From: a virus
Reading direction: 5' to 3' (one strand)
IMG/VR virus record: IMGVR_UViG_3300017763_000177
Span: 1-24,437 of that record
Length of the DNA: 24,437 nt
Part shown: positions 1-12,800 of the stretch, one piece after another
Numbering within the stretch: the first letter of the stretch is position 1
Layout of the letters: each line of letters begins with the position of its first letter
Position numbers and translations under genes: made by a program
The notes under the pieces: model-generated
The model's database searches: none
Told to the model about the DNA's origin: nothing
What the model saw: the letters and a program-made list of their open reading frames with translations, nothing else

Positions 1-185
1 ACCTCCAGTGGTTCTGCATAAACCAGAGCATCTTCTGGACAAGTGTTACGGATGACCTCAAGAACATCCATGAACTGATCCACAGTATCACAAACAATTT
101 CTTTTGTGTCTCCTTCACTGGAATAGATGTAGATTGTGCGTTTGGTAGGGTCTACAACACAACGTGTGAGAAACTCGTCTTGCAT
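1..185 (-). CDS. Small conserved-type phage protein, partial (3' end outside window)
   Basis: The first 61 codons are visible, starting MQDEFLTRCVVD and continuing to the window edge; the reading frame is open throughout. I do not recognise a domain. The visible part looks like a small soluble alpha/beta protein, with strands around RTIYIYSS and a helix around VDQFMDVLEVI. I chose the ATG at 185. An in-frame ATG at 221 would lie inside the promoter spacer, upstream of the likely transcription start, and has no ribosome binding site. The ATG at 185 has AAGG four bases upstream. The gene follows the oxygenase on the same strand but has its own sigma70-type promoter, so it probably belongs to an early or host-polymerase-dependent unit, not to the late structural operon. 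By eye its codons are richer in G and C than those of the fibre genes. Function unknown. Confidence 0.7.
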   Translation of the reverse strand, partial: MQDEFLTRCVVDPTKRTIYIYSSEGDTKEIVCDTVDQFMDVLEVIRNTCPEDALVYAEPLE

Positions 186-209
186 GGTGCCTTGGTTGCT
201 TACCTTCTT

Positions 210-238
210 ATTATAAGGCATTTGAGTGCCGGTGTCAA
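210..238 (-). promoter_or_regulatory. Consensus sigma70-type promoter (TTGACA-N17-TATAAT)
   Basis: Read on the minus strand, TTGACA (238 to 233) is followed by a 17-base spacer and TATAAT (215 to 210). Both hexamers match the bacterial sigma70 consensus perfectly and the spacing is optimal. Transcription would start near 203-204, about 18 bases before the ATG at 185. The -35 box contains the TGA stop of the upstream oxygenase gene. In T4-like phages, promoters of this kind serve early genes read by unmodified host RNA polymerase, so this site would start an early unit at the end of a late operon. Confidence 0.85.
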
Positions 239-831
239 CCGTTTCTGGTATCATTGACGTAGTACCAAGTAACTGCCACTCGCTTTTTACCAGACTTTAC
301 TGGTTCTGATTGATGGGGAAAACACCAATTTGATGGAAAAAATAATGCATGACCAGATTTTGGTTTGTATTTTTTATGCGAAAATACCGTATGTCCTCCC
401 TCAAAATCTTCAGAAAGATAAAGAACTATTGATATATCTCTGTGATAGCAATTATTGTTTGGATCTGTCGCAACATCAAAATGTTCTCGATATCTTTGAC
501 CTTCAATATAATCTAAGATTTGAATACCTTCTCTCCAACATGTTGTATCCATTCCGGCAGGGACTGGATAACTATCAATTACTTTTGCCTTTTCGATTAA
601 TCTTTGTTTATAAACCAATAAAGCATCATTTAATCTATCTGTCATAAGTTTGGCAACATCACAATTATCATCTAAAGATGTTCCCGTGCTTGTTCTAACT
701 CTTTCATCGACTTTTGGTGTTCCTGTAGAAAAAATTCTACATGCACCAAAATCTAAAGCATTAATATATTCATTTACTTGTTCTAATTCTTTTGGTGATA
801 ATACTTGAATTGTTTGAATAAAATTGTTCAT
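235..831 (-). CDS. 2OG-Fe(II) oxygenase, prolyl 4-hydroxylase type
   Basis: This 198-aa protein is a predicted 2-oxoglutarate- and Fe(II)-dependent dioxygenase. The iron ligands are visible as the HxD pair His117/Asp119 (REHFDV) and the distal His173. Lys183, ten residues after the distal His, is the expected 2-oxoglutarate carboxylate ligand. The C-terminal pattern H-x3-PV-x2-G-x-K-x5-W and the strand IVLYLS followed by EGGHTVF are those of the prolyl 4-hydroxylase branch and not of the AlkB or TauD branches. Length fits a single catalytic domain, and there is no signal peptide, so it acts in the infected cell. The gene ends the fibre cassette and has a late-type octamer upstream (850-857). 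Such oxygenases are common in cyanophages, with substrate unknown. Here the nearby collagen-like fibre (7213-7520) is an attractive candidate substrate, but that is inference. Confidence 0.88.
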   Translation of the reverse strand: MNNFIQTIQVLSPKELEQVNEYINALDFGACRIFSTGTPKVDERVRTSTGTSLDDNCDVAKLMTDRLNDALLVYKQRLIEKAKVIDSYPVPAGMDTTCWREGIQILDYIEGQRYREHFDVATDPNNNCYHRDISIVLYLSEDFEGGHTVFSHKKYKPKSGHALFFPSNWCFPHQSEPVKSGKKRVAVTWYYVNDTRNG

Positions 832-849
832 ATCAAATCATTTTAAATT

Positions 850-857
850 TATTTAGT
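850..857 (-). promoter_or_regulatory. Possible T4-type late promoter octamer (ACTAAATA)
   Basis: The minus strand reads ACTAAATA, matching 6 of 8 positions of the T4 late promoter TATAAATA. It lies 18 bases upstream of the oxygenase ATG and just after the stop of the small fibre gene. The match is modest and the region is very AT-rich, so the site could be chance. The position between genes, as at 1588 and 20696, is the main support. Confidence 0.4.
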
Positions 858-862
858 TTTGA

Positions 863-1573
863 TTACGCAGATATTTCCATAAGGGTCATCCAGGATTGTG
901 GAACTGGATTTGTGCTAGAATCCTGGTAATTCGAATATGCAACACCAGAACCATTATAGGCAGCAAGATCAGTTGAATATGTTATAGAACTAGTTGTGAA
1001 CGGACTATCCAAATATTCTACTCTAGACCTACCATAATATGTTGTGGCTTTACTGGTGTCGGTATCTATGAGACCAAAATCATATGATCCACCACTATTA
1101 CCTGGTGGATTATAAACTACTGTATTACCTCTCTTTATTCTTATGGCATGAAGAGATGATGTTTCAGTAACACCTGTAAGTGTATGATATATTGAATGTT
1201 CAAATGAAACTAATATTTTACTATTTGTTGAAGTTGGTGTAATAGATGCTTGAAGACCTGTGCTCACCCAAGCGTTTGAACCTGAAGTGGTATTTGCTTG
1301 TGAAGTGTGAACAACACGAATAAGTTGTAGAACTTTTCCAGTTCCTGGATTATTTTGCCACGTTGGGTCACTACCTGATCCATTTGATGTTAATACCTGT
1401 CCTGCAGATCCATAATTTGGTCCACCAAGACCAATTTTTCCACCAATGGTGATATCCGTGCTTACGGTAACATTAGATGCATTTAAATTTAAATTATTAG
1501 GACTTTCTATAGTTGGTGTTCCAGAAGCACCAATTAAATCAATTTCCTTTACACCAAATCCTTTATCTGCCAT
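863..1573 (-). CDS. Small tail-fibre-like protein
   Basis: This 236-aa protein has two parts. Residues about 1-75 hold a short beta-repeat segment containing IGLGGPNYGSAGQVLTSNG and then PTWQ, closely like two segments of the 1915-aa fibre encoded upstream. Residues about 80-236 form a beta-rich domain starting VLQLIRVVHTSQ and containing LQASITPTSTNSKILVSF. This Ser/Thr-rich pattern recurs in tips of marine phage fibres, so a receptor-binding or fibre-tip role is likely. No catalytic motif is seen. It follows the S8 protease gene with an 17-base gap and ends two dozen bases before the oxygenase gene. No good ribosome binding site precedes the ATG. It may have arisen by duplication or splitting of a fibre module. 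The fibre-family assignment is reasonably sure; the receptor role is inferred. Confidence 0.7.
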   Translation of the reverse strand: MADKGFGVKEIDLIGASGTPTIESPNNLNLNASNVTVSTDITIGGKIGLGGPNYGSAGQVLTSNGSGSDPTWQNNPGTGKVLQLIRVVHTSQANTTSGSNAWVSTGLQASITPTSTNSKILVSFEHSIYHTLTGVTETSSLHAIRIKRGNTVVYNPPGNSGGSYDFGLIDTDTSKATTYYGRSRVEYLDSPFTTSSITYSTDLAAYNGSGVAYSNYQDSSTNPVPQSWMTLMEISA

Positions 1574-1587
1574 TTCAGTTTTTTAGA

Positions 1588-1595
1588 TATTTAGG
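1588..1595 (-). promoter_or_regulatory. Possible late promoter octamer (CCTAAATA) overlapping a stop codon
   Basis: The minus strand reads CCTAAATA, with the TAA stop of the S8 protease gene inside it, 14 bases upstream of the next ATG (1573). It matches TATAAATA at 6 of 8 positions. The resulting leader would be very short, so the call is tentative. Confidence 0.35.
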
Positions 1596-3495
1596 ATTGA
1601 CTAAATGATACTCCGGCAATGTTTAAACCATTAATTTTTGGAATAGTATCATTTGCCGTTTCATCATAAAGTATTCTCTTTTCGGCACCTCTCATATTAA
1701 ACTGACCAGTCCAATAATTTGTTGTAGTATCATCAGTGTATTGATCTTGATAAGAACTAATAATTTTCGACCCTCTAACCTTCAACCATTCTTTAACTTG
1801 TCTTGATGTTGCTGTTGGATTCATCTCCATATAAAGAGCAATAACACCTGCTGCTACTGGAGATGCAGCAGAAGTGCCATTAAAATAACAATCATAAAAA
1901 CGATTATCATCATATCTTACATAATCTTCATATCTAGTGACACCATTTGTTCCTGGTGCCAATGTCTCATCAGCAGGTGCCCATACATCAATACCAGGCC
2001 CATTATTTGAATAAGTTGCTTTTCTCTCAGAACCATCAAGATTAATATACTCGTCCATGGCACCAACACAAATCACTGGATGAAAATCAGTAGCACTATC
2101 AAAACCAATACCCTGTGGATTCATCCAGTCTCTATGGTTGCATGGACATGCATTGCCGGGAAATTCTGATCTTGGATCTCCGACGTTAAAGTAATCATCA
2201 TCCATATAATTTAAACGATCTGGATCATCAGCACCAACACCCAATCTTTGATTATTGTTTCCTGCAGAAGCAACATAGATAACACCCTCCTCCATCATTT
2301 CATCAGCAGCAGTATTAGTTGAGTTAGATCTTGACGATGAAGACCATGATTTATATGCACCAGTAACCTGATTGTTTAGTCCATCTTTCCAAGCAGTCAC
2401 TTGATTAGTTACAGAGTCATTTCCTGTAAAGGTTCCTGTTGAACCCCTAAACTTATAGGTTACAGTATCAGTAGAACTAAATGCTGCTTGATATCCCCAA
2501 CTCCCATTGATGACAGTGGGATTTTTTCTGCCAGTTTCAGAATTGATTGGTTTGTTGCGATGCCAGATTTTCATATAATCATAATTTCTTTCAATATCAC
2601 CACCAGTATTATCACCAATACCAGGCATATTCCAAATATTTGCTTCAAAAGCAAGACCCATATATTTTCCGGCAGCAAGACCAGCACAAGCAGTTCCGTG
2701 TCCACTAATCAAATTGTTTGTTCCATCTAAATTCTCTCCCATGGCACGTTCAGCAGTATGAGTAAATACTGTATATACCGTACCTTCAGATTGAAAAGCA
2801 GAAGATCGTTGTGAGGCAAAGTTCCACCATCCATGAGCGGATGAAGTTGTTATTCCAATTCTTCCGTCTGCTTTTGTATATGTAAGATTATTTGATGTAA
2901 AATAATTAGGATCCATATAAAATGGTCCATCGAGAACAATATCTCTTACTCTTGATTGACCATTAGCATCCAAAAACTCTGGATGATATTGCAAAACACC
3001 CGAATCATGAATAACGAGATCGACATTTCTTCCAGTTAAACTATAACTAACATCATCACTAATAGCTGGTGGATTACCAACTACGTTTGGCCATGAATCA
3101 CTATTTGCTTCAACACCGACTCTTTTGACTGCCCAATTTGTTCTTTTATCTTCCGCAGAAGTTGGATTAGTTGCCGGTGGTCCATTACCAGCATTAAGAT
3201 CTCTATATATTTTTACATTTTCACGAAACCTTTTGGTTGCTGGTGAAGGTTTAGGATATGATTCTGGATTATCTGTAGGAGACAACTCAATCCACTTAAT
3301 GTGAGGATGTGTAGCAATTTCTGTCGCTTCCTCTTCTGTCAACTCATAAGTTCCTCTCGTAGGACTATGATCTTTGCTATCGGTACACGTTATTTGTCTA
3401 TCAGGAATACCATCCTGATTAGAATCAACGATAAGAGCATTATGAATCTCATTCCAGTATTCGGATCTTTCAACTGATAATGTATACCTTTTCAT
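1591..3495 (-). CDS. Subtilisin-like serine protease (peptidase S8 family)
   Basis: This 634-aa protein has the complete S8 triad in order: Asp164 in VIHDSGV, His266 in SGHGTACAG, and Ser542 in NGTSAASP. Asn413 in VASAGNNN is the expected oxyanion-hole residue. Residues about 1-80 resemble an inhibitory propeptide, with a strand-helix-strand pattern ending near HIKWIELSP, and they include a calcium-loop-like stretch DSNQDGIPD. No signal peptide is seen, so it works inside the infected cell or as part of the virion. The preferred ATG is at 3495. It shares one base with the stop of the fibre gene (TGATG) and has GAGG upstream; a GTG one codon earlier is less likely. Its place between two fibre genes suggests processing of fibres or digestion of host surface protein. 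Family assignment is firm; the target is unknown. Confidence 0.92.
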   Translation of the reverse strand: MKRYTLSVERSEYWNEIHNALIVDSNQDGIPDRQITCTDSKDHSPTRGTYELTEEEATEIATHPHIKWIELSPTDNPESYPKPSPATKRFRENVKIYRDLNAGNGPPATNPTSAEDKRTNWAVKRVGVEANSDSWPNVVGNPPAISDDVSYSLTGRNVDLVIHDSGVLQYHPEFLDANGQSRVRDIVLDGPFYMDPNYFTSNNLTYTKADGRIGITTSSAHGWWNFASQRSSAFQSEGTVYTVFTHTAERAMGENLDGTNNLISGHGTACAGLAAGKYMGLAFEANIWNMPGIGDNTGGDIERNYDYMKIWHRNKPINSETGRKNPTVINGSWGYQAAFSSTDTVTYKFRGSTGTFTGNDSVTNQVTAWKDGLNNQVTGAYKSWSSSSRSNSTNTAADEMMEEGVIYVASAGNNNQRLGVGADDPDRLNYMDDDYFNVGDPRSEFPGNACPCNHRDWMNPQGIGFDSATDFHPVICVGAMDEYINLDGSERKATYSNNGPGIDVWAPADETLAPGTNGVTRYEDYVRYDDNRFYDCYFNGTSAASPVAAGVIALYMEMNPTATSRQVKEWLKVRGSKIISSYQDQYTDDTTTNYWTGQFNMRGAEKRILYDETANDTIPKINGLNIAGVSFSQS

Positions 3496-6400
3496 CACAT
3501 TACCTCACGTTTAATACGATATGTTGTGGATCCATTTACACCTGTTTCCGGAGTTGCTCTTAAGTTAACATTTCCACCACTAATCGTGGCATCAAGTTGA
3601 ACTAAAAGACCATTACTATGCATAATCGCATATTGAGTTGAATCAACTGTTGTTCCATCTCTCATTACCAGTAACTTTTGAGTTTGATAATTTGATCCAT
3701 TCTTGACGAATACAGTGTATTCAAATACAAGTTCTGCTGAATCATAAGTGTAACTTTGCAATGTAGATGGAGATCCCGCAGTTGCGGTGAATGTTCCTGA
3801 AGAAACTGTTCCTCCACCACCGGATCCACCACCATTAATTGTAATGGTTTTAGTTGCTCCAGATCCTGATGCCGTCACTCCAGCACCAACAAAGTTTAAT
3901 GTAGTCGCAGATGTGGATAATGCACTACCTTCATCTTGAACAGTAATTCCACTAGAACCACTTGCTGCTAATGTAATTCTACCTTGAGCATCAACGGTTA
4001 TATTTGCATTAGTGTATGAACCGGCAGATACATTAGTGTTTGCCAATTTATCAGCAGTAACTGCATCATCGGCAATCATTTCCATTTGGACTTGAACTTC
4101 GGCAATAGTTCCAGCAGAAGTTCCACCTAAAACACGATTAGCAGTGGAAAGATCCTGCATTTTGTCATAAGTTACGACATCAGAGTCAATAGTCCAAGTG
4201 GCACCAGAATTTGATACTGTTATATCACCTTTATCTCCATCAGTAATTCCACCAGAAGCATCTGCCCAAGTAACACCTGCACCAGGACCACCAGAAGTTA
4301 ATACTTGACCAGAAGTTCCATAATTAGTACCAGCAATACCAATTTGTCCACCAGAAGTTATACGAAGTCTTTCATTTCTAGGATCGGATACTGAATACTC
4401 TCCACCTACTGTGAAAACTAAATCTCCAGGACCAGTGCCGCTATAGTTACCAGCAACAACTAAATTATCATCTTCATCACTATAAATGTAATGTCGAGTG
4501 TTATTACTTGTTCTCTTTAATTCAATTTGACCGCCACCAATGTTGGCAAGAGAAAGAGTTGAATAATCAACTGCTTCTGATGGAATAGTGGTTCCTATAC
4601 CAACATTACCACTGTGAGTTACACGAAGTTTTTCTGTGCCTTCTGTTAATACTTTAAAGTGTCCATTGGTTCCAGTATCTACTACTTCTGCTGATGTATT
4701 TCCTTCAGATATTTTATCTCCAGATGTTGCAGTGTGCTTGATGATGTAGCAAAGAGCATAATATGGTGGGAGGTTTGCATTGGTTCCAGTTTGTGTGATT
4801 GAGTTAGCACCAGCATTAGTTTGACCTGTTGCATCAGTGCGTGAACTTGCATCATAATGTGCATCATTAGGATTAGAAGTGTGAGAATCCCAATCAAAAC
4901 CTGCATCTACCCCTGCTCTCACAACATGTCTATATCCAGACTCAGATCCATATGTTCCATGAGAGTGACCTATAAGAACGGCATTAGCACTACCACCAGG
5001 TGTGGCATTAGGAGAAAGACCTGGATATGTATTATCTCCAGTACTATTAGATGCACCGACAATAAATCTATCTCTTAAATCAGGAACATTAGAACCGGTG
5101 ATTGCCTGAAGTGCTGATGTTGATGCTACACCACCATCACAAAGTTGGTACTCACTAGGAATAGTTGCTGCTAATCCTGCCCATGCGACAATAGTACCTA
5201 CAGGGTCTGATGATCCTCCACTGCCTCCTCCACCAGAAGATTGAGCAACCCAATCATAATCAGAACCATTCCAACTCAATACTTCACCAGTAGAAGCAGT
5301 TCCTTGATTTAAATGAGAGTCTACGTCAGAGTTCCCATAAGAACCACCGCCTCCTCCACCAGAAGCATTTTGCCAAGTAGGAGCACTTGAAGCACCATTA
5401 GAAGTTAATACTTGACCAGAAGTTCCATAGTTAGCACCACTAAGACCAATTTGTCCATTAGTTCCAATACGAAGTCTTTCTAATCTTGATCCATTATATG
5501 AACCATCATTTCCGGGAATACCATTATTTCCGACAAAGAATACTAAATTTGCGTCAGTTTGTATCTCCATACATCCATTACTGACACCTAAACCATATAT
5601 GTTGTTTATTGTATCTTTATTTGATGATGCAGTATTATCCTTCCAGAGGTGAAGTTTTACAGCACTCCAATGTCCACTACCTGCACCAAGATCATTACCA
5701 GTACCATCACTAGAATAAGAACTTCCCAGATTAATCACACCTGTTACATTATTACTAGTAGCAACACCACCTCCAGCATTTAAAGTTATATCATCACAAT
5801 CAGCATATGTATTGGTTGTTGGTTTGATGCGGAACCTTTCTGTTCCTTCTGTTAATACTTTAAAGTGTCCATCAGTACCAGTATCTACAACTTCTGCTGA
5901 TGTATTTCCTTCTTGAATTTTATCCGATGGACCTCCTATTGTTGATGCATCTATAAATTCCAATGCACTAGCACCAGAATTTACGGCAACAAGTTTACTA
6001 CCTTGATTAGTATAATTTGCAGGAGTATCTGTAAGACCCGTAAATTTATCGGTTCCACCAATACCAGCAAGACTTATTGTCGTGGTTAAATCTGTTAAGG
6101 AACCTGTTCTTGTTAAGGTAAGAGTGTCACTGCTAAATGAGACACCATCAACATAATTATCTGTTCCTATTCCAGAACCACCAGAACTCAAATCTTGAAT
6201 AACTACCTGAGTGTAAATTTCATCTCCGACACCCAAAGCAACACCAAAACCATTTGTGGATCTTGTATCTGTGCACCTGTGTTGAACTTTAAAATAAGTT
6301 GTTTCGGTGATGGTAACTATTGTTTCACCAAAAGATCTGGTTTGCACCAGGAGGTTATTTTCAAGTAAGGGATCTGTACATACTTCAGAAGTTCCAAATA

Positions 6401-9242
6401 TATCGGTAGAACTGGTAAAACTGGTATTATTTGCATAAAGCAATTTTGACTTATGTTTATCTACCGCATGTGCCGGAGCACTCCAACTTATCTTATAAGT
6501 TCCAGAATCTAGTGCAAAATAATTATTGCTAGAACTAAAAGTAACAAAAGATTCTGGATCAATTTCGATATTTAATGTTCTATCGACCCATGATCCACTA
6601 TTGAAAGCACCACCATTAGTTCCTGAAGATTGTTGTTCATATAAAATTGCTGCTTTAGTGGATCCGCCACTACCACCACTACCACCACTACCACCACTAC
6701 CTGCGGTGTGTCTAATGATAAAGCAAAGTGCATAATATGGTGGTCTATTCTCGTGGAAAGTATTTCCACCTCTAGCCAAATTACCTACAATATTATTAAA
6801 TGGTGGACCATCATCAGTAAGAACCCTATTAGCACTATTATTACCATCTACATCAAATCCCCACTGTGTTGGACCCGCTTGTCCACCTGTAGTAGTATCA
6901 AAGTGGTTGTGAGTTGGCATCTCACCAATAGTTAATTGATGAGCAACTTCACCACCCTCTTGATCTGGAGCAAAAAGTCCAGATGTTGCACCAGTAGCAG
7001 CATTAAATGTTTGTCCGGTTCCACTATCAGATCCGGCACCAACAATAAATCTATTTCTTAAATCAGGTACATTGGCACCAGTAATTGCTTGAAGTTCTGT
7101 TGTTTGTGCTGATCCCCCATCACAAAGTTGATATTCATTAGTAGGAATATCTGCGACTGAACCAGCCCATGCGACGATAGTACCTATCGAAGCTGTTGAA
7201 CTAGATGCAGATGGACCTGGTGGACCTGGTGGTCCTGAAGGTCCCGGTGGTCCTGGTGTCGTTGAAGTTGGACCTGGTGGACCTGGTGGTCCTGGTGTCG
7301 TCGAAGTTGGACCTGGTGGACCTGGTGGTCCTGGTGTCGTTGAAGTTGGTCCTGGTGGTCCTGGTGGACCTGGTGTCGTCGAAGTTGGACCTGGTGGTCC
7401 CGGTGGTCCATCACCACCTGAAGGTCCCGGTGGTCCATCACCACCTGAAGGTCCCGGTGGTCCTGGTGTTGTTGAAGCTGGACCTGGTGGTCCCGGTGGT
7501 CCTGAGGGTCCTGGGGGAAGACCTGCAGGATCCATCCACGCTGGTTTAGTATTGCCATTATCCCATTTTAAGAGATAACCATCACCAGATGATCCAGGAT
7601 CTGCCAAAAATGTTGTGGAATTTGGACCATCTTGATATACAAGATCTCCTGCGGTTCCACCAGCAAGATCATCTGCCACTATATTGGCATACAAATTGCC
7701 ACCAACATATAAATCTCCACCAGTAGTCGTAATACCACCAGCACCTGCAAGAGAAACATCAACACCAGATCCATCTCCGGTAAATGATACTGCACCACCT
7801 ACATTTAAATTTAGTCCAATATTTACACTTTTTTCTACACCAATACCACCCTCAGTAATAATAGAACCACTGTCTTTACCCGTAGATTCGGTGGTTCCAT
7901 TTACAAGCAATGGGTCATTAATTTGAACAGCACTATCCGAATCAAGAATTAAATTTCCTGTTCCTGATTTAGTGCTTATAGTGTTTGTATTTACTACAAC
8001 GTTAGCAAGAGTTGAAACTCCAGTAACTGTCAAATTATTGAGTTGAAGTAAATTGAGATCAAGTGTTCCTATAGTGGCAATACCAGAAATATTAACGTTA
8101 TCAAGTTCAGTGTGACCATCAACATCTAATCCACCATTAGCATCGATATTAGCAGAAAATGTAGCAGTTTCGGCAACATTCAATACATCTAAATCTGTTG
8201 TTCCATCTACATCTAAATCAAAATTAGCATCAATATTTGCGTTAAAGGTTGAAATTCCTGCAACGATGAGTTCATCTAAATCTGATAGACCATCTACTTC
8301 TAATTTTCCATCAACAGTTAAATTCTTTTTAAAAGTTGAATTTTCACTTGCAGTTACAGTATCAATAAAAACACCGCCATTAAATGTGGATATACCAAGA
8401 ACATCTAATAACTGTGTTGGTTGTGTGCTTCCAATACCAACTCTGTTATTATTAAAATCAAAGTAAAAATTATTTGCTCCGTCTACAAGTCCTGCATTAT
8501 TGTGAAACTGAATCTGTCCTATAGTTCCACCAGCACCTGCAGTAACAACATTTTGATTGACCCATGAAAGACCGCCGGTTGCATTTTTTACCAGTATATC
8601 ATTAGTATCTCCTGGTTGATTAGTAGAATCATAAATTGTTCCTGTGATTCTAAAATTACCATTTAAATGTAATTTTTGAGTTGGATTTATGGTCCCAATA
8701 CCAACCGAACCAATACCAGTTGTTGTAATAACCGTCCCACCGGTTCCTACAGTTATTCTATCACCGGCAGCAAACAATCCATTATCAAATGTAAATCTCG
8801 TATCTGTGGCAAAATCAGTTCCTCCTGTGCCTACAAATAAAACCTCATTCTGACTTCCTGGAGGTGCGACTGTTATTGTTACGGCAACACCAGGATTAGA
8901 TCCACCTACACCTTCTGCGGTAATTGATTCACCTACAAAATTTAGTTGTGTTGTACTACTAAGTCCACCTACAAGAGTTCCTTCCTCAAAAATACTAAGA
9001 CTTCCGGGAATAATTCCACCTTGATTGGGAATCCAAAATCTATTTCCTGTGGGTTGCCCTTCAATATTGACGAGAATATATTGTTGTCCGGATGGAAGTG
9101 TACTTGGATCGTAAATAGACGGTCCACTTAAAGGATCACCCAGATCTGGTTCAGAATCACTAGGTGACAAATATCTATATCTATCAGAAGATAATCCAGA
9201 CTGAGGAGTTTTTTTATAACGACCCGATATATACTTTGGCAT
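3495..9242 (-). CDS. Large collagen-like tail fibre protein with two collar domains and a C1q-like domain
   Basis: This 1915-aa protein is a multidomain adhesin. In order it shows: an N-terminal segment (about 1-130, including LNFVGESITAEG); VGIGT-type beta repeats and LDVDG repeats (about 150-480); a collagen-like Gly-Pro-Pro region (about 575-678); a tail-collar domain (about 684-847) starting GTIVAWAG with a PTHNH metal-binding-type motif; a GGS linker; a jelly-roll domain (about 865-1020) with SGTNGGAFNSGSW and VQHRCTDT, like C1q/TNF-type heads of phage fibres; repeat modules; a second collar domain (about 1344-1507) with GHSHG; more modules; and a C-terminal domain ending YRIKREVM. Length exceeds T4 gp34 and gp37. 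No S74 autoproteolytic chaperone domain is present. It follows the 223-aa gene by five bases and is translationally coupled to the S8 protease gene. The fibre role is firm; the exact position on the virion is unknown. Confidence 0.9.
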   Translation of the reverse strand: MPKYISGRYKKTPQSGLSSDRYRYLSPSDSEPDLGDPLSGPSIYDPSTLPSGQQYILVNIEGQPTGNRFWIPNQGGIIPGSLSIFEEGTLVGGLSSTTQLNFVGESITAEGVGGSNPGVAVTITVAPPGSQNEVLFVGTGGTDFATDTRFTFDNGLFAAGDRITVGTGGTVITTTGIGSVGIGTINPTQKLHLNGNFRITGTIYDSTNQPGDTNDILVKNATGGLSWVNQNVVTAGAGGTIGQIQFHNNAGLVDGANNFYFDFNNNRVGIGSTQPTQLLDVLGISTFNGGVFIDTVTASENSTFKKNLTVDGKLEVDGLSDLDELIVAGISTFNANIDANFDLDVDGTTDLDVLNVAETATFSANIDANGGLDVDGHTELDNVNISGIATIGTLDLNLLQLNNLTVTGVSTLANVVVNTNTISTKSGTGNLILDSDSAVQINDPLLVNGTTESTGKDSGSIITEGGIGVEKSVNIGLNLNVGGAVSFTGDGSGVDVSLAGAGGITTTGGDLYVGGNLYANIVADDLAGGTAGDLVYQDGPNSTTFLADPGSSGDGYLLKWDNGNTKPAWMDPAGLPPGPSGPPGPPGPASTTPGPPGPSGGDGPPGPSGGDGPPGPPGPTSTTPGPPGPPGPTSTTPGPPGPPGPTSTTPGPPGPPGPTSTTPGPPGPSGPPGPPGPSASSSTASIGTIVAWAGSVADIPTNEYQLCDGGSAQTTELQAITGANVPDLRNRFIVGAGSDSGTGQTFNAATGATSGLFAPDQEGGEVAHQLTIGEMPTHNHFDTTTGGQAGPTQWGFDVDGNNSANRVLTDDGPPFNNIVGNLARGGNTFHENRPPYYALCFIIRHTAGSGGSGGSGGSGGSTKAAILYEQQSSGTNGGAFNSGSWVDRTLNIEIDPESFVTFSSSNNYFALDSGTYKISWSAPAHAVDKHKSKLLYANNTSFTSSTDIFGTSEVCTDPLLENNLLVQTRSFGETIVTITETTYFKVQHRCTDTRSTNGFGVALGVGDEIYTQVVIQDLSSGGSGIGTDNYVDGVSFSSDTLTLTRTGSLTDLTTTISLAGIGGTDKFTGLTDTPANYTNQGSKLVAVNSGASALEFIDASTIGGPSDKIQEGNTSAEVVDTGTDGHFKVLTEGTERFRIKPTTNTYADCDDITLNAGGGVATSNNVTGVINLGSSYSSDGTGNDLGAGSGHWSAVKLHLWKDNTASSNKDTINNIYGLGVSNGCMEIQTDANLVFFVGNNGIPGNDGSYNGSRLERLRIGTNGQIGLSGANYGTSGQVLTSNGASSAPTWQNASGGGGGGSYGNSDVDSHLNQGTASTGEVLSWNGSDYDWVAQSSGGGGSGGSSDPVGTIVAWAGLAATIPSEYQLCDGGVASTSALQAITGSNVPDLRDRFIVGASNSTGDNTYPGLSPNATPGGSANAVLIGHSHGTYGSESGYRHVVRAGVDAGFDWDSHTSNPNDAHYDASSRTDATGQTNAGANSITQTGTNANLPPYYALCYIIKHTATSGDKISEGNTSAEVVDTGTNGHFKVLTEGTEKLRVTHSGNVGIGTTIPSEAVDYSTLSLANIGGGQIELKRTSNNTRHYIYSDEDDNLVVAGNYSGTGPGDLVFTVGGEYSVSDPRNERLRITSGGQIGIAGTNYGTSGQVLTSGGPGAGVTWADASGGITDGDKGDITVSNSGATWTIDSDVVTYDKMQDLSTANRVLGGTSAGTIAEVQVQMEMIADDAVTADKLANTNVSAGSYTNANITVDAQGRITLAASGSSGITVQDEGSALSTSATTLNFVGAGVTASGSGATKTITINGGGSGGGGTVSSGTFTATAGSPSTLQSYTYDSAELVFEYTVFVKNGSNYQTQKLLVMRDGTTVDSTQYAIMHSNGLLVQLDATISGGNVNLRATPETGVNGSTTYRIKREVM
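6664..6702 (-). repeat. 9-base tandem repeat coding for a Gly-Gly-Ser linker
   Basis: About four copies of a 9-base unit (accaccact on the plus strand) encode (SGG)n between the first collar domain and the C1q-like domain of the large fibre. The unit is a multiple of three, so copy-number changes would alter linker length without breaking the frame. Confidence 0.8.
7213..7520 (-). repeat. Collagen-like Gly-X-Y repeat region
   Basis: This stretch encodes roughly 100 residues of Gly-Pro-Pro and Gly-Pro-Ser triplets. Four near-identical 39-base units encode GPPGPPGP plus TSTTP, and there are two shorter GPSGGD units. The TSTTP and GGD inserts break the strict triplet register, as in other bacterial and phage collagens with interruptions. 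A trimeric triple-helical stalk is the expected structure. Long antisense and alternative-frame ORFs here are by-products of the repetition. Confidence 0.9.
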
Positions 9243-9247
9243 ATTTC

Positions 9248-9919
9248 TTATGTTGTGCTATTCTCCAGAATACTCATGATTAGTTCCATTTGTAACGGAG
9301 CAGCTTTACCACCACTAACATATGTATGTCCAATTCCAGAAACTACACCCGAATTTGTGGTAAATGTAAGTGAGGTTCCGACAGTACCAGTAATACCATC
9401 AACGACAAAAGATCTTTGAGGTTCTGGGAATATAGATGTTGTCAATCCTCCAGTATAAGAGGCACAACTAAAAGCAATTCCACTCATTGTTACTTCATCA
9501 TCTACCTCAAATCCATGAGGAGTAGATGTCTGTACTGTCGTAATACCTGTTGTATGATCATAGTCAACAAAATTTATATCAACTACTCCTGACTGCACTC
9601 CTTGAACTATTATAGAATCTCGTAATAGTGCTGATCTTTCCAAAACTAATCGACCATCAATAACCACCAAAGAATCTTGTGGTGGAACCTCTGCATTTTT
9701 TATAACTCTAGTATCTCTAGTATTTCCTGATGTCTTTGATGCTGTGCTTTTTCTTCTATGTGTAAAAGTAAATGTTGGATAAGTATTGACCCCAACATTA
9801 GCAATAGAAGCATATAAAATAATGGAAGAAACACCAGTCGGAGCTTCGTAAACGATTTGCTCCCCTGGTGCTATGGGCACTGCCTTTGTAATAAACTTAT
9901 TAAGTGGTGCTATTGCCAT
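9248..9919 (-). CDS. Beta-rich virion structural protein, unidentified
   Basis: This 223-aa protein is not recognised by name. It starts MAIAPLNKFITKAVPI and looks beta-rich throughout. The middle has the pattern TTVQTSTPHGFEVDDEVTMSG, a turn-rich segment of a kind that recurs in marine phage tail proteins. There is no signal peptide, membrane segment or catalytic motif. It is tightly packed between two fibre-type genes, with one base to the stop of the 959-aa gene upstream and five bases to the large fibre ATG downstream, so it is co-expressed with them. A role as connector or small fibre/baseplate component is likely from context alone. Confidence 0.6.
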   Translation of the reverse strand: MAIAPLNKFITKAVPIAPGEQIVYEAPTGVSSIILYASIANVGVNTYPTFTFTHRRKSTASKTSGNTRDTRVIKNAEVPPQDSLVVIDGRLVLERSALLRDSIIVQGVQSGVVDINFVDYDHTTGITTVQTSTPHGFEVDDEVTMSGIAFSCASYTGGLTTSIFPEPQRSFVVDGITGTVGTSLTFTTNSGVVSGIGHTYVSGGKAAPLQMELIMSILENSTT

Positions 9920-9920
9920 A

Positions 9921-12800
9921 TTATCTCAACGCAAGTATGAGTGGAGTTACTTCTGCCTGTATTGATTTACTAAAATCTCTTCCTCTAATTGTAGATGTTG
10001 TTTGATCAACTTGAATACCTTCACCAATATCAAAATTTCCTTTTTGGTCTGTAGAGGTGAATGGAATTTGAGCACCGTCTGTAGCGACAACCTCATTTTC
10101 CTTGATAGAAAGAGCACCTTCAAAAGGTAACGAAGTATTTATGCTGGTGCCGGAACCAACATATTCAAAAGAATGAGAACTAGTTAAGATACGACTAATT
10201 CTTTGTAGTGTAAATGGATCGTCCGGGAACAATTCATAAGGAACGAATTCATTGAATGTAATTGTTGTAATTCCTGCAGGATCTTGACGATTATCAGTTG
10301 CCTCCGAAATAGTAAAATAAATTGGAGACATTACGGCAGTTGCGAATCCCGATAAAGCAGGATTTCCATCAATATCTACAACTATATTTTGAGTTGATAG
10401 ATAATTTCTGCCAGAATTAATGACATCAATAGCAGTTATAGTTCCTGCCGCACTTACAGTTGCACTTCCTTCTGCTATAATTCCTTGTGGTCCTTTAGGT
10501 AAAACAGTTCCATCATTATCTCGTATTAAAATATCTGGTGGATTGGACTGACTGAATTGTCCTGAAACACCACCATTTAATATCCTAATACTGGAAAGTT
10601 CTTGTAATGGTGATGTAATTCTTCCTGTTGCTTGTTCTGCCCCAGGAACATCTGGATAATTAGATAAATCAATTTTAAAGTATAATGCTTGTCCATCAAA
10701 CGGTCTTCTAGAATCACCATCCGTATCAGTCACACCTTTACCAACGACTACATCAGAGTTATCTCCTGGTATGACAGAATCTCTTACTTTACCAGTAAAT
10801 TGTGTTGAACCAAGACCGGCAGCAACCAATCCAAAATTACCAAATGATGAGTTAGAGTTTGTGAGGTCACATTGTCCACCACTACCAGCAAAAATTGCAA
10901 TATCACAGTTAATTGTGAAGATGGAAACTAACTGAGCATAAGCATTATTAGTCAATGATACACCAATACCTGCCTCATTATACTGAGTGAATGAGTCGCA
11001 GACCATAGACTTCAAATTAGCACCATCCGGTGTTCCCGTAGCATCATTACCATCAATCCTCATACCAATACTTCCGGTCATAAAATTGGTACAGTTTCTG
11101 ATATATGGTGATCTCCACCTACCAGTGTCACCTTGATTTGCTGGTCCACTGGGAGTATATCCACTATTTGCAGTTTGCCCTGTTATTGGGAAAGCAACTG
11201 CACCACCAGTATGCGTTACACCAACTGTTGCACCAGAGAAGTTTAAATTTTCAATTAAACATCCTCTTCTAACCCAGAAAACATCCAAATTAGTATTTTG
11301 TGGTTCAATAGCAACTAGTCTTATATCCTCTCCTGTAATTGATATATCTCTTTGAAGACCGATTGGATTATTCTCGACATATCGTCCAGGACGAACCTTA
11401 ATTGTATCTCCAGGTTGAGCTATTGCTGCTGCTCCACCAATTGTTGCTTTTGCATCACCCTCCAACAATCCACTATTAGAATCATTACCGTTTTTTGAAA
11501 CCCAAATAGTATTGTGTGTTTCTACACCGGAAGGTCTCCAAGAGACACCAGTTCCAACAGATGCTAATCTATAATCTTTCCCGTTAACTCCAGTTTGATT
11601 ATTTACATCAATTAATGAACTTTCAAGTTCTAATGTACCTTCTATTTTAGTATCATCACCAACGAATAACTTTTTAACTATGCCAACACCACCATCAATT
11701 TGAACTGATGCATCAGTTTTGCTAGTAGCATCAGTAGTATCATTGAATGTTGCTTTACCATCAACATCTAAGGTGGCATTTAATGTAGTATCACCATCAA
11801 CATCTAAGGTGGCATTTAATGTAGTATCACCATCAACATCTAAGGTGGCATTTAATGTAGTATCACCATCAACATCTAGTGTATTATTAAGTGTGGTAGC
11901 ACCATCAACATCTAGTGTATTATTAAGTGTGGTAGCATCATTAACATTTAACGTTCCATTTACGTCTAAGTCAAATTGTGGATCATTGTTTTTAATTCCA
12001 ACCCTGGTCATCCTATAGATTGGAGCACTATTACCAGTTCCTACATATCCCCACAAGTCCTGTGTTTGTATTCTTACAATTTCTTGTGGGTTCCCTACAT
12101 CAGCGATTGGAATGGTTGTATCTGTTCCTAAACCAAGACTATTAATCTGCCTATAATTAAATACTGTAAATGACTGTGCTGCACCAACATAAGGATCTGT
12201 CGGATCAGTGGAGCTGGATATGTAACGACCCTCATCCTGAACAAAAACGCCCTCAGAGAATGCTGGTTCAAATGTTACCCAACGAACACCAAATTCATCA
12301 CGGTTTAAGAATGCACCATTTGCACCATGAGAACCAGCAGAATCATAAATGTTTCTTCTTACTGATAAGGTTTCTAAATCAAGACTTAATTTTCCCTGTG
12401 TAGACTCATTGAGAGCAGTAATTCCAAGTCCGGGATTTATGGTTCCTATACCAACGGTGCCTAGACCAGTAATTACGACTGTATTTTCTAGTTCAGAATT
12501 GAATTGAAACTTTTGTACAGGTGTTGCCGTGAATATACCAACTCTATCTGTTCTAGTATCGGCAGTAAATACAGTTCCACCTACTCCAACATCAAAAGAT
12601 ATTCTTGCGGTAAGAATATCAATATCCAAGTTACCTTCAATGATTACATCTTTCTTGAAGGTAACTTTTTCATAAAAAAGTGCTTCTCCTGTAATATCAA
12701 TTCCATTGAGACAAGTTTTTCCCCATATGGTTACATTTTCAAATACTGAATCACCAGACCTAGTAAATGTTATGTTTGATGGTACGGGACAATATGCCAT
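9921..12800 (-). CDS. Repeat-containing fibre/structural protein with parallel beta-helix domain
   Basis: This 959-aa protein starts MAYCPVPSNITFTRSG. Residues about 20-130 contain DxDILTARI and VGIGTINP-type segments shared in style with the large fibre. Residues about 270-375 carry TLDVDG repeats, including five 12-residue units encoded by exact or near-exact 36-base repeats. From about residue 430 the pattern TIWVSKNGNDSNSGL followed by IAQPGDTIKVRPGRYVENNPI is that of a pectin-lyase-type right-handed beta-helix, seen in adhesins and tailspikes. The C-terminal part has GTITAIDVINSGRNY, a beta-repeat also hinted at in the 488-aa hub-region protein. No active-site residues for a lyase could be assigned. 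It probably forms a fibre or spike attached to the baseplate. A weak GAGA sequence precedes the ATG. Confidence 0.75.
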   Translation of the reverse strand: MAYCPVPSNITFTRSGDSVFENVTIWGKTCLNGIDITGEALFYEKVTFKKDVIIEGNLDIDILTARISFDVGVGGTVFTADTRTDRVGIFTATPVQKFQFNSELENTVVITGLGTVGIGTINPGLGITALNESTQGKLSLDLETLSVRRNIYDSAGSHGANGAFLNRDEFGVRWVTFEPAFSEGVFVQDEGRYISSSTDPTDPYVGAAQSFTVFNYRQINSLGLGTDTTIPIADVGNPQEIVRIQTQDLWGYVGTGNSAPIYRMTRVGIKNNDPQFDLDVNGTLNVNDATTLNNTLDVDGATTLNNTLDVDGDTTLNATLDVDGDTTLNATLDVDGDTTLNATLDVDGKATFNDTTDATSKTDASVQIDGGVGIVKKLFVGDDTKIEGTLELESSLIDVNNQTGVNGKDYRLASVGTGVSWRPSGVETHNTIWVSKNGNDSNSGLLEGDAKATIGGAAAIAQPGDTIKVRPGRYVENNPIGLQRDISITGEDIRLVAIEPQNTNLDVFWVRRGCLIENLNFSGATVGVTHTGGAVAFPITGQTANSGYTPSGPANQGDTGRWRSPYIRNCTNFMTGSIGMRIDGNDATGTPDGANLKSMVCDSFTQYNEAGIGVSLTNNAYAQLVSIFTINCDIAIFAGSGGQCDLTNSNSSFGNFGLVAAGLGSTQFTGKVRDSVIPGDNSDVVVGKGVTDTDGDSRRPFDGQALYFKIDLSNYPDVPGAEQATGRITSPLQELSSIRILNGGVSGQFSQSNPPDILIRDNDGTVLPKGPQGIIAEGSATVSAAGTITAIDVINSGRNYLSTQNIVVDIDGNPALSGFATAVMSPIYFTISEATDNRQDPAGITTITFNEFVPYELFPDDPFTLQRISRILTSSHSFEYVGSGTSINTSLPFEGALSIKENEVVATDGAQIPFTSTDQKGNFDIGEGIQVDQTTSTIRGRDFSKSIQAEVTPLILALR
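11757..11936 (-). repeat. Five tandem 36-base repeats inside the 959-aa gene
   Basis: Five units of 36 bases begin at 11757, 11793, 11829, 11865 and 11901. The first three are identical and the last two differ slightly. Each encodes 12 residues with the core TLDVDG. The units are contiguous, in frame and without spacers, so this is a coding tandem repeat able to expand or contract, and not a CRISPR array. Confidence 0.9.

Follow-up and report, generated by a model that had tools for sequence, protein, structure and literature searches.

Does a bacteriophage hydroxylate the collagen-like fibre that it encodes, as animals harden collagen with a prolyl hydroxylase? The question arises from a 24,437-base fragment of the IMG/VR collection (IMGVR_UViG_3300017763_000177, hereafter the window), a T4-like, cyanophage-type tail region lying mostly on the minus strand. 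A 198-residue oxygenase (positions 831 to 235, minus strand) and a 1,915-residue tail fibre (9242 to 3495, minus strand) stand there in one same-strand cassette, as a reading of the sequence alone had noticed. Phages of this group are marine tailed phages that probably infect cyanobacteria. Our analysis directly supports the family of the enzyme, the conservation of its active and peptide-binding site, its linkage to the fibre cassette, and a one-way association between Pro-Pro-Gly (PPG) repeats and the enzyme. From this genomic link we infer that the phage likely produces a prolyl hydroxylase together with its structural proteins and uses it on prolines of the collagen-like fibre that it encodes.

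The oxygenase matches the 2OG-FeII_Oxy_3 family (PF13640, E = 5.3e-17; 2OG, 2-oxoglutarate), and its iron triad HxD...H and 2OG-binding lysine lie in a double-stranded beta-helix. The sequence-only reading had attributed to it a prolyl 4-hydroxylase (P4H) character on the basis of the H117/D119/H173/K183 set, which is entirely present, and of the spacing H173-x3-PV-x2-G-x-K183-x5-W189, which reads exactly as claimed; this identity is now backed by the fold and by peptide-binding residues. The best PDB sequence matches were P4Hs of Bacillus (5hv0) and Chlamydomonas (2jig, 3gze), with E values of 3e-8 to 5e-6, while the PKHD-type 3dkq reached only 0.008. Unlike the window oxygenase, these P4Hs come from cells and have Pro-rich or collagen-like peptides as substrates, with no link to a phage fibre. 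The RTSTGT motif aligns with the Chlamydomonas P4H, and R46, S48, E101, H117, D119, and R131 align to its Arg93, Ser95, Glu127, His143, Asp145, and Arg161 (residue numbers obtained with a fixed offset of 29, derived in this analysis). Arg93 and Ser95 presumably have peptide-binding roles. Glu127 and Arg161 are described, in passages of PMC5684110, as positioning the proline substrate. None of the six aligned residues, nor H173 or K183, varies among 50 aligned orthologues sharing 47 to 90% identity with the window enzyme, and the subfamily is sharply bounded, its lowest member scoring 217 bits and the next sequence 77. With the AlphaFold model (pLDDT 87, pTM 0.87), Foldseek returned first the viral collagen prolyl hydroxylase (vCPH) of PBCV-1 (PDB 5c5t), then a HIF prolyl hydroxylase and the algal P4H with a (Ser-Pro)5 peptide. 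The PBCV-1 enzyme, whose substrate is reportedly known from peptide work by Eriksson in 1999, has the same fold but belongs to an algal virus and is about 22 to 25% identical to the window oxygenase. Judging from alignment and model, prolyl hydroxylase is the best family reading for the oxygenase.

The proposed substrate is an interrupted GPP/PPG stem at fibre residues 574 to 677 (positions 7212 to 7523, minus strand), encoded by tandem repeats with a period of 39 bases (GPPGPPGPTSTTP unit) and placed between the N-terminal tail region and a tail-collar domain (phrog_1800 tail collar fiber, residues 670 to 844, E = 5e-41). Of its 104 residues, 47 are Pro and 30 are Gly, and the fibre contains 17 PPG, whereas 2,000 shuffles averaged 0.85 and reached 5 at most. 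Of the about 100 residues of Gly-Pro-Pro announced from the sequence alone, the Gly/Pro region itself stood, but not as one unbroken GPP helix: linkers such as TSTTP and GGD separate short GPP blocks, and the Gly-X-Y pattern runs for at most 9 triplets without a break. Tandem Gly-X-Y triplets mark a collagen-like tail fibre, although the Pfam collagen repeat model did not report it at E 0.1, composition filters being able to drop repeats.

The pairing of enzyme and collagen-like protein recurs among relatives. In an oxygenase-anchored set of 80 viral-contig loci plus reference phages, 86 loci were examined and 76 had a collagen-like open reading frame (ORF) upstream of the oxygenase, within 1 kb in 57 of the 76 and within 150 bases in 23. 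Among the 10 others, 8 have less than 4 kb upstream; L090 and L124 have more, and L090, with no PPG in about 10 kb upstream of the oxygenase, remains an exception. Homologues at 40 to 50% identity occur in P-SSM2, ACG-2014f, and S-CAM7 at the end of a fibre cassette, every one of which includes Gly-X-Y proteins, and are followed by a small gene and then a large (5.7- to 5.9-kb) conserved tail-fibre gene. Of the oxygenase relatives found in contigs filed under bacterial or archaeal genomes (L470, L471, and L472; Pelagibacteraceae single cell and Euryarchaeota metagenome-assembled genome), 3 of 3 are likewise accompanied by collagen-like ORFs, and L470 has the tail-fibre gene as well; these contigs are therefore probably phage DNA. 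At three loci (L099, L137, and L153), the oxygenase subfamily occurs twice within one cassette.

To avoid selecting on enzyme or stem, viral contigs were then chosen by the conserved downstream tail-fibre gene. The best 80 matches from each of three neutral-gene scans, whose query alignments came from oxygenase-bearing phages, gave 229 loci, of which 186 were left without exact duplicates and 113 after dropping 73 with less than 3 kb upstream (near-duplicates kept). At least three PPG were found at 15 of the 29 loci with the oxygenase subfamily and at 0 of the 84 without it (P = 4e-11), with the same result at a threshold of five. The co-occurrence check across related phages proposed with the sequence-only reading, run here, thus gave a strong association rather than none, and one that is one-way (PPG implies the oxygenase) and specific to the subfamily. 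Counting PPG replaced a first collagen detector requiring six unbroken triplets because that detector missed interrupted stems like that of the window; L058, L093, L095, and L127, apparent exceptions under it, have 10 to 22 PPG. A whole-contig search of 50 contigs lacking the cassette enzyme (49 of the 84 loci plus L064, replacing its duplicate L062) found the subfamily nowhere else on them, in a search list that carried no positive control but with a model that found members in another contig set. DNA coding for PPGPPG was present in 25 of 50 oxygenase contigs versus 2 of 50 others, and in both of the latter the motif occurs once and, going by the contig orientations given, on the strand opposite to the cassette. 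Among 24 complete cyanophage genomes, the subfamily occurs in 3 and the PPGPPG motif in 2, both among those 3, and more distantly related 2OG genes are present in 17 of the remaining 21. That any 2OG oxygenase would do was considered and rejected, as other 2OG genes showed no relation to PPG (5/18 and 26/100, P = 1).

Homologous fibres, defined here as covering most of the N-terminal region of the window fibre at 40 to 59% identity, allow the stem to be compared on a common background. Seven of them, in L058, L091, L093, L095, L103, L118, and L135, have 5 to 22 PPG, all with the oxygenase, whereas the homologous fibres of L035 and L062, without oxygenase, have 2 PPG, L062 carrying, at the equivalent position, a Gln-type Gly-X-Y stem. 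The closest fibres (L468 and L469, 58 to 59%) have neither enzyme, PPG repeats, nor Gly-X-Y, and L006 is an exception with the enzyme and one PPG. The fibre N terminus as a single-protein query matched 2 loci, which were used as controls. The linkers between blocks vary among phages (PSVT, SPSTVA, DPSSVA, and TSTTP), suggesting that repeat chemistry, rather than one inherited sequence, is kept.

The points that weigh against hydroxylation of the fibre concern the enzyme, the stems, and the history of the cassette. As to the enzyme, VIA-align gave tied Z scores of 17 to 18 for EF-Tu P4H, HIF P4H, PKHD/PiuC, vCPH, and algal/collagen-type P4H, separating neither P4H from PKHD/PiuC nor the 2OG families from one another; the top identity among the tied rows (29%) was that of the algal P4H. 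Hence, the fold alone does not fix the substrate. The sole NCBIfam match is a PKHD-type dioxygenase model, at 38.4 bits far below its cut-off of 143; the PKHD/PiuC-type assignment, which is the database name of the P-SSM2 orthologue (annotated piuC or ferrochelatase), does not reach this curated score. Alternatively, the enzyme's target could be some other protein of host or phage, such as EF-Tu or a ribosomal protein (the kind of substrate that bacterial P4Hs modify), and its place in the cassette could reflect the clustering of late genes. We hold this to be unlikely: the highest Z score (18.4, tied with many others) belongs to the Pseudomonas P4H bound to EF-Tu and some oxygenase loci lack PPG, but neither the absence of enzyme-less PPG cassettes (0/84), nor the collagen-like ORFs upstream at 76 of 86 loci, nor the change of stem among homologous fibres would be predicted.

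As to the stems, the PPG count stays below three at 14 of the 29 neutral-sample oxygenase loci, and in L070, L076, L077, and L086 the oxygenase stands beside Ala/Gln/Thr-type Gly-X-Y with Pro at 0 to 1% of Y positions. The enzyme beside nearly proline-free Gly-X-Y fibres means that the simple picture fails to cover every relative; in these four, either a proline-bearing substrate lies outside the stretch sequenced or the enzyme has another role there. Among 16 low-PPG oxygenase loci (a set including reference phages), L006, L008, L185, L186, L198, and L203 have moderate proline and at least six GxPG. An enzyme acting on Gly-X-Y fibres generally, for which proline is not the sole or main target (e.g., other Y residues) and the Pro-rich stem is one substrate type, would account for Ala/Gln/Thr- and Lys/Glu-type Gly-X-Y beside the oxygenase (the four loci above together with L179 and L181), and the broader association is likewise strong, with Gly-X-Y runs at 27 of 29 loci with oxygenase versus 22 of 84 without (P = 1.3e-10). 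Nevertheless, this explanation appears quite improbable given that the P4H peptide-binding set is conserved and that Gln- and Lys-type fibres are common without the enzyme (22/84) whereas PPG fibres do not occur without it (0/84). Pro occupies 18.5% of the Y positions (28% at X) at loci with oxygenase but 2.3% at those without, where Gln (37%) and Lys (26%) prevail, and even oxygenase loci without PPG are richer in GPxG than enzyme-less loci (3.66 versus 0.92 per 1000). The stems of phage collagens fall into Gln-type (GTQ/GLQ/GAQ), Lys/Glu-type (GEK/GDK), and Pro-type classes (e.g., L062, L091, L215, and L271), and the oxygenase is commonly missing with the first two.

As to the history of the cassette, fibre and enzyme are separated in the window by two genes and 2.7 kb, and on a tree of 118 tail-gene proteins the independent pairs were 3 same, 0 opposite, and 2 undecided (P = 0.25), so small a number that 0.05 was out of reach. 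Enzyme and Pro-rich fibre might then hitch-hike as one exchangeable tail cassette, by shared ancestry and with no functional tie. The cassette does behave as a swap module: positions 1 to 238 of the window (also L332) share 92% DNA identity with phage S-SKS1, the identity ending at about the oxygenase stop codon, and S-SKS1 has small genes in place of the oxygenase and fibre cassette, so that the break reads as a clean module boundary. Shared ancestry without function is, however, the least probable of the explanations weighed here, and we consider it very unlikely. The same tree requires a minimum of 14 changes for the oxygenase and 6 for PPG, and a Pagel-type likelihood model of dependent evolution (own script, single start for the dependent model, some rates at bounds) is favoured, with P = 9e-6 for PPG and 6e-8 for Gly-X-Y against P = 1 for other 2OG genes. 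Of 34 cassette gene families scanned, the strongest one without oxygenase members reached only P = 3.7e-4; greedy clustering merged the oxygenase with other 2OG genes, and the top row (P = 3e-6) was not used for the oxygenase. Moreover, in two other phage types (L003 and L463), a different, non-orthologous 2OG-FeII_Oxy_3 enzyme follows Gly-X-Y fibres.

Beyond this phage group the association loosens, a further point against a general rule: among unrelated viral contigs with real PPG repeats, 48 drawn from 80 loci fetched, 9 have the subfamily and 17 any relative, and the proposition that PPG anywhere implies this enzyme was rejected. In 8 further contigs with more distant relatives, the pair is adjacent on one strand in L463 only, and in G047 PPG repeats and a distant oxygenase relative lie about 3 kb apart on opposite strands. 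By eye, the L003 and L463 oxygenases have no Glu127 counterpart and are PKHD-like. After the three Gly-X-Y fibres at L003:4078-13948 come two 2OG oxygenases, a glycosyltransferase with a fused DUF6445 region, and another glycosyltransferase-like gene; the three collagen-like PPG fibres at L463:3-5467 precede a DUF6445 protein and a 2OG oxygenase from a different subfamily. In ACG-2014f (L008:13917-15594), the oxygenase gene and a glycosyltransferase gene have an 8-base overlap, a hint that hydroxyproline may be glycosylated in that phage. A glycosyltransferase as general partner was not retained: relatives of the ACG-2014f/S-CAM7/L003 type occur in 2 of 34 oxygenase cassettes versus 0 of 84 (P = 0.08), and within 5 kb at 4 of 83 oxygenase loci. 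An annotated flavin-dependent halogenase stands among the tail genes of S-SRM01 (L313:19630-21087).

We propose a model in which the phage prolyl hydroxylase acts on its own fibre during assembly; the fibre as substrate, proline as the modified residue, the timing, and the mechanical effect or stabilising purpose all belong to this model. The oxygenase would be expressed late, together with the fibre, and hydroxylation would occur on unfolded chains, before trimerisation, its target most likely being the proline before glycine in the PPG stem. The chains would then trimerise, and hydroxyproline may stabilise or stiffen the short triple-helical (or polyproline II) stem.

The cassette runs, in the direction of transcription, from two fibre genes (9248 to 12800, minus strand; phrog_1276 and phrog_17885) to the 1,915-residue fibre, an S8 (subtilisin-type) protease, a 236-residue protein, the oxygenase, and a small phrog_662 protein (3 to 254, minus strand). 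The protease (1591 to 3498, minus strand; 635 residues; PF00082, E = 1.9e-24; phrog_9158, E = 3e-87) has a start codon overlapping the fibre gene end and shows the motifs IHDSG, GHGTACAG, and GTSAASP, which we take to be its catalytic D/H/S motifs. As a guess, it could trim or process the fibre; a protease for fibre processing would be unusual. The 236-residue protein (863 to 1573, minus strand), with no family match in Pfam or PHROG, is probably a small tail or fibre protein. A CTAAATA motif, resembling a late promoter, lies directly upstream of the oxygenase start (850 to 856, minus strand); the window has 7 such sites versus 5.9 expected, a count not above chance, and all 7 lie at most about 120 bases upstream of a same-strand ORF start. 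The phage collection searched held no near-identical genome, 4 records matching the first 12.8 kb and each covering at most 4%.

Viral collagen with a viral prolyl hydroxylase is already known from mimivirus, for which passages of PMC9546862 describe collagen-like proteins together with viral collagen prolyl and lysyl hydroxylases; the phage fibre-cassette version is the new part. In both, one virus encodes collagen-like proteins and their presumed hydroxylase, but mimivirus is a giant virus of amoebae, whereas here a tailed bacteriophage has the enzyme in a tail-fibre cassette and a short interrupted stem; no lysyl hydroxylase was seen in the window, unlike in mimivirus. Collagen-like tail fibres of Escherichia coli prophages likewise have Gly-X-Y stems, but passages of PMC3368898 state that the prolyl hydroxylases required are missing from bacteria and viruses and that proline is not favoured at Y, while the phages studied here have both. 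In Baltic Sea phages, P4HA is reported in parts of PMC9301287 as an abundant auxiliary metabolic gene, with tail-fibre collagen mentioned and the viral use called "cryptic"; those parts contain no linkage, substrate, or co-occurrence test. Our literature search, with preprints and most subscription papers outside it, returned no phage P4H reported to act on its own fibre, beyond one speculation.

It may well be, with the balance about even in our judgement, that tailed phages run a dedicated collagen-maturation system with interchangeable stem chemistries (Pro-Pro-Gly, Gln-type, and Lys/Glu-type), in which the PPG type depends on a phage prolyl hydroxylase, so that hydroxyproline is part of the virion; this hydroxyproline may also be glycosylated in ACG-2014f and S-CAM7, which have a glycosyltransferase gene nearby. 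P-SSM2, a cultured phage, has the enzyme and many PPG fibres, which makes the question directly testable. If fibre hydroxylation is true, small single-gene enzymes would be on hand for producing hydroxylated collagen. Bacteria and their viruses have so far been regarded as lacking proline hydroxylation of collagen, as in the passages of PMC3368898 cited above; its occurrence in these phages would bring an oxygen-, iron-, and 2-oxoglutarate-dependent step into virion assembly.

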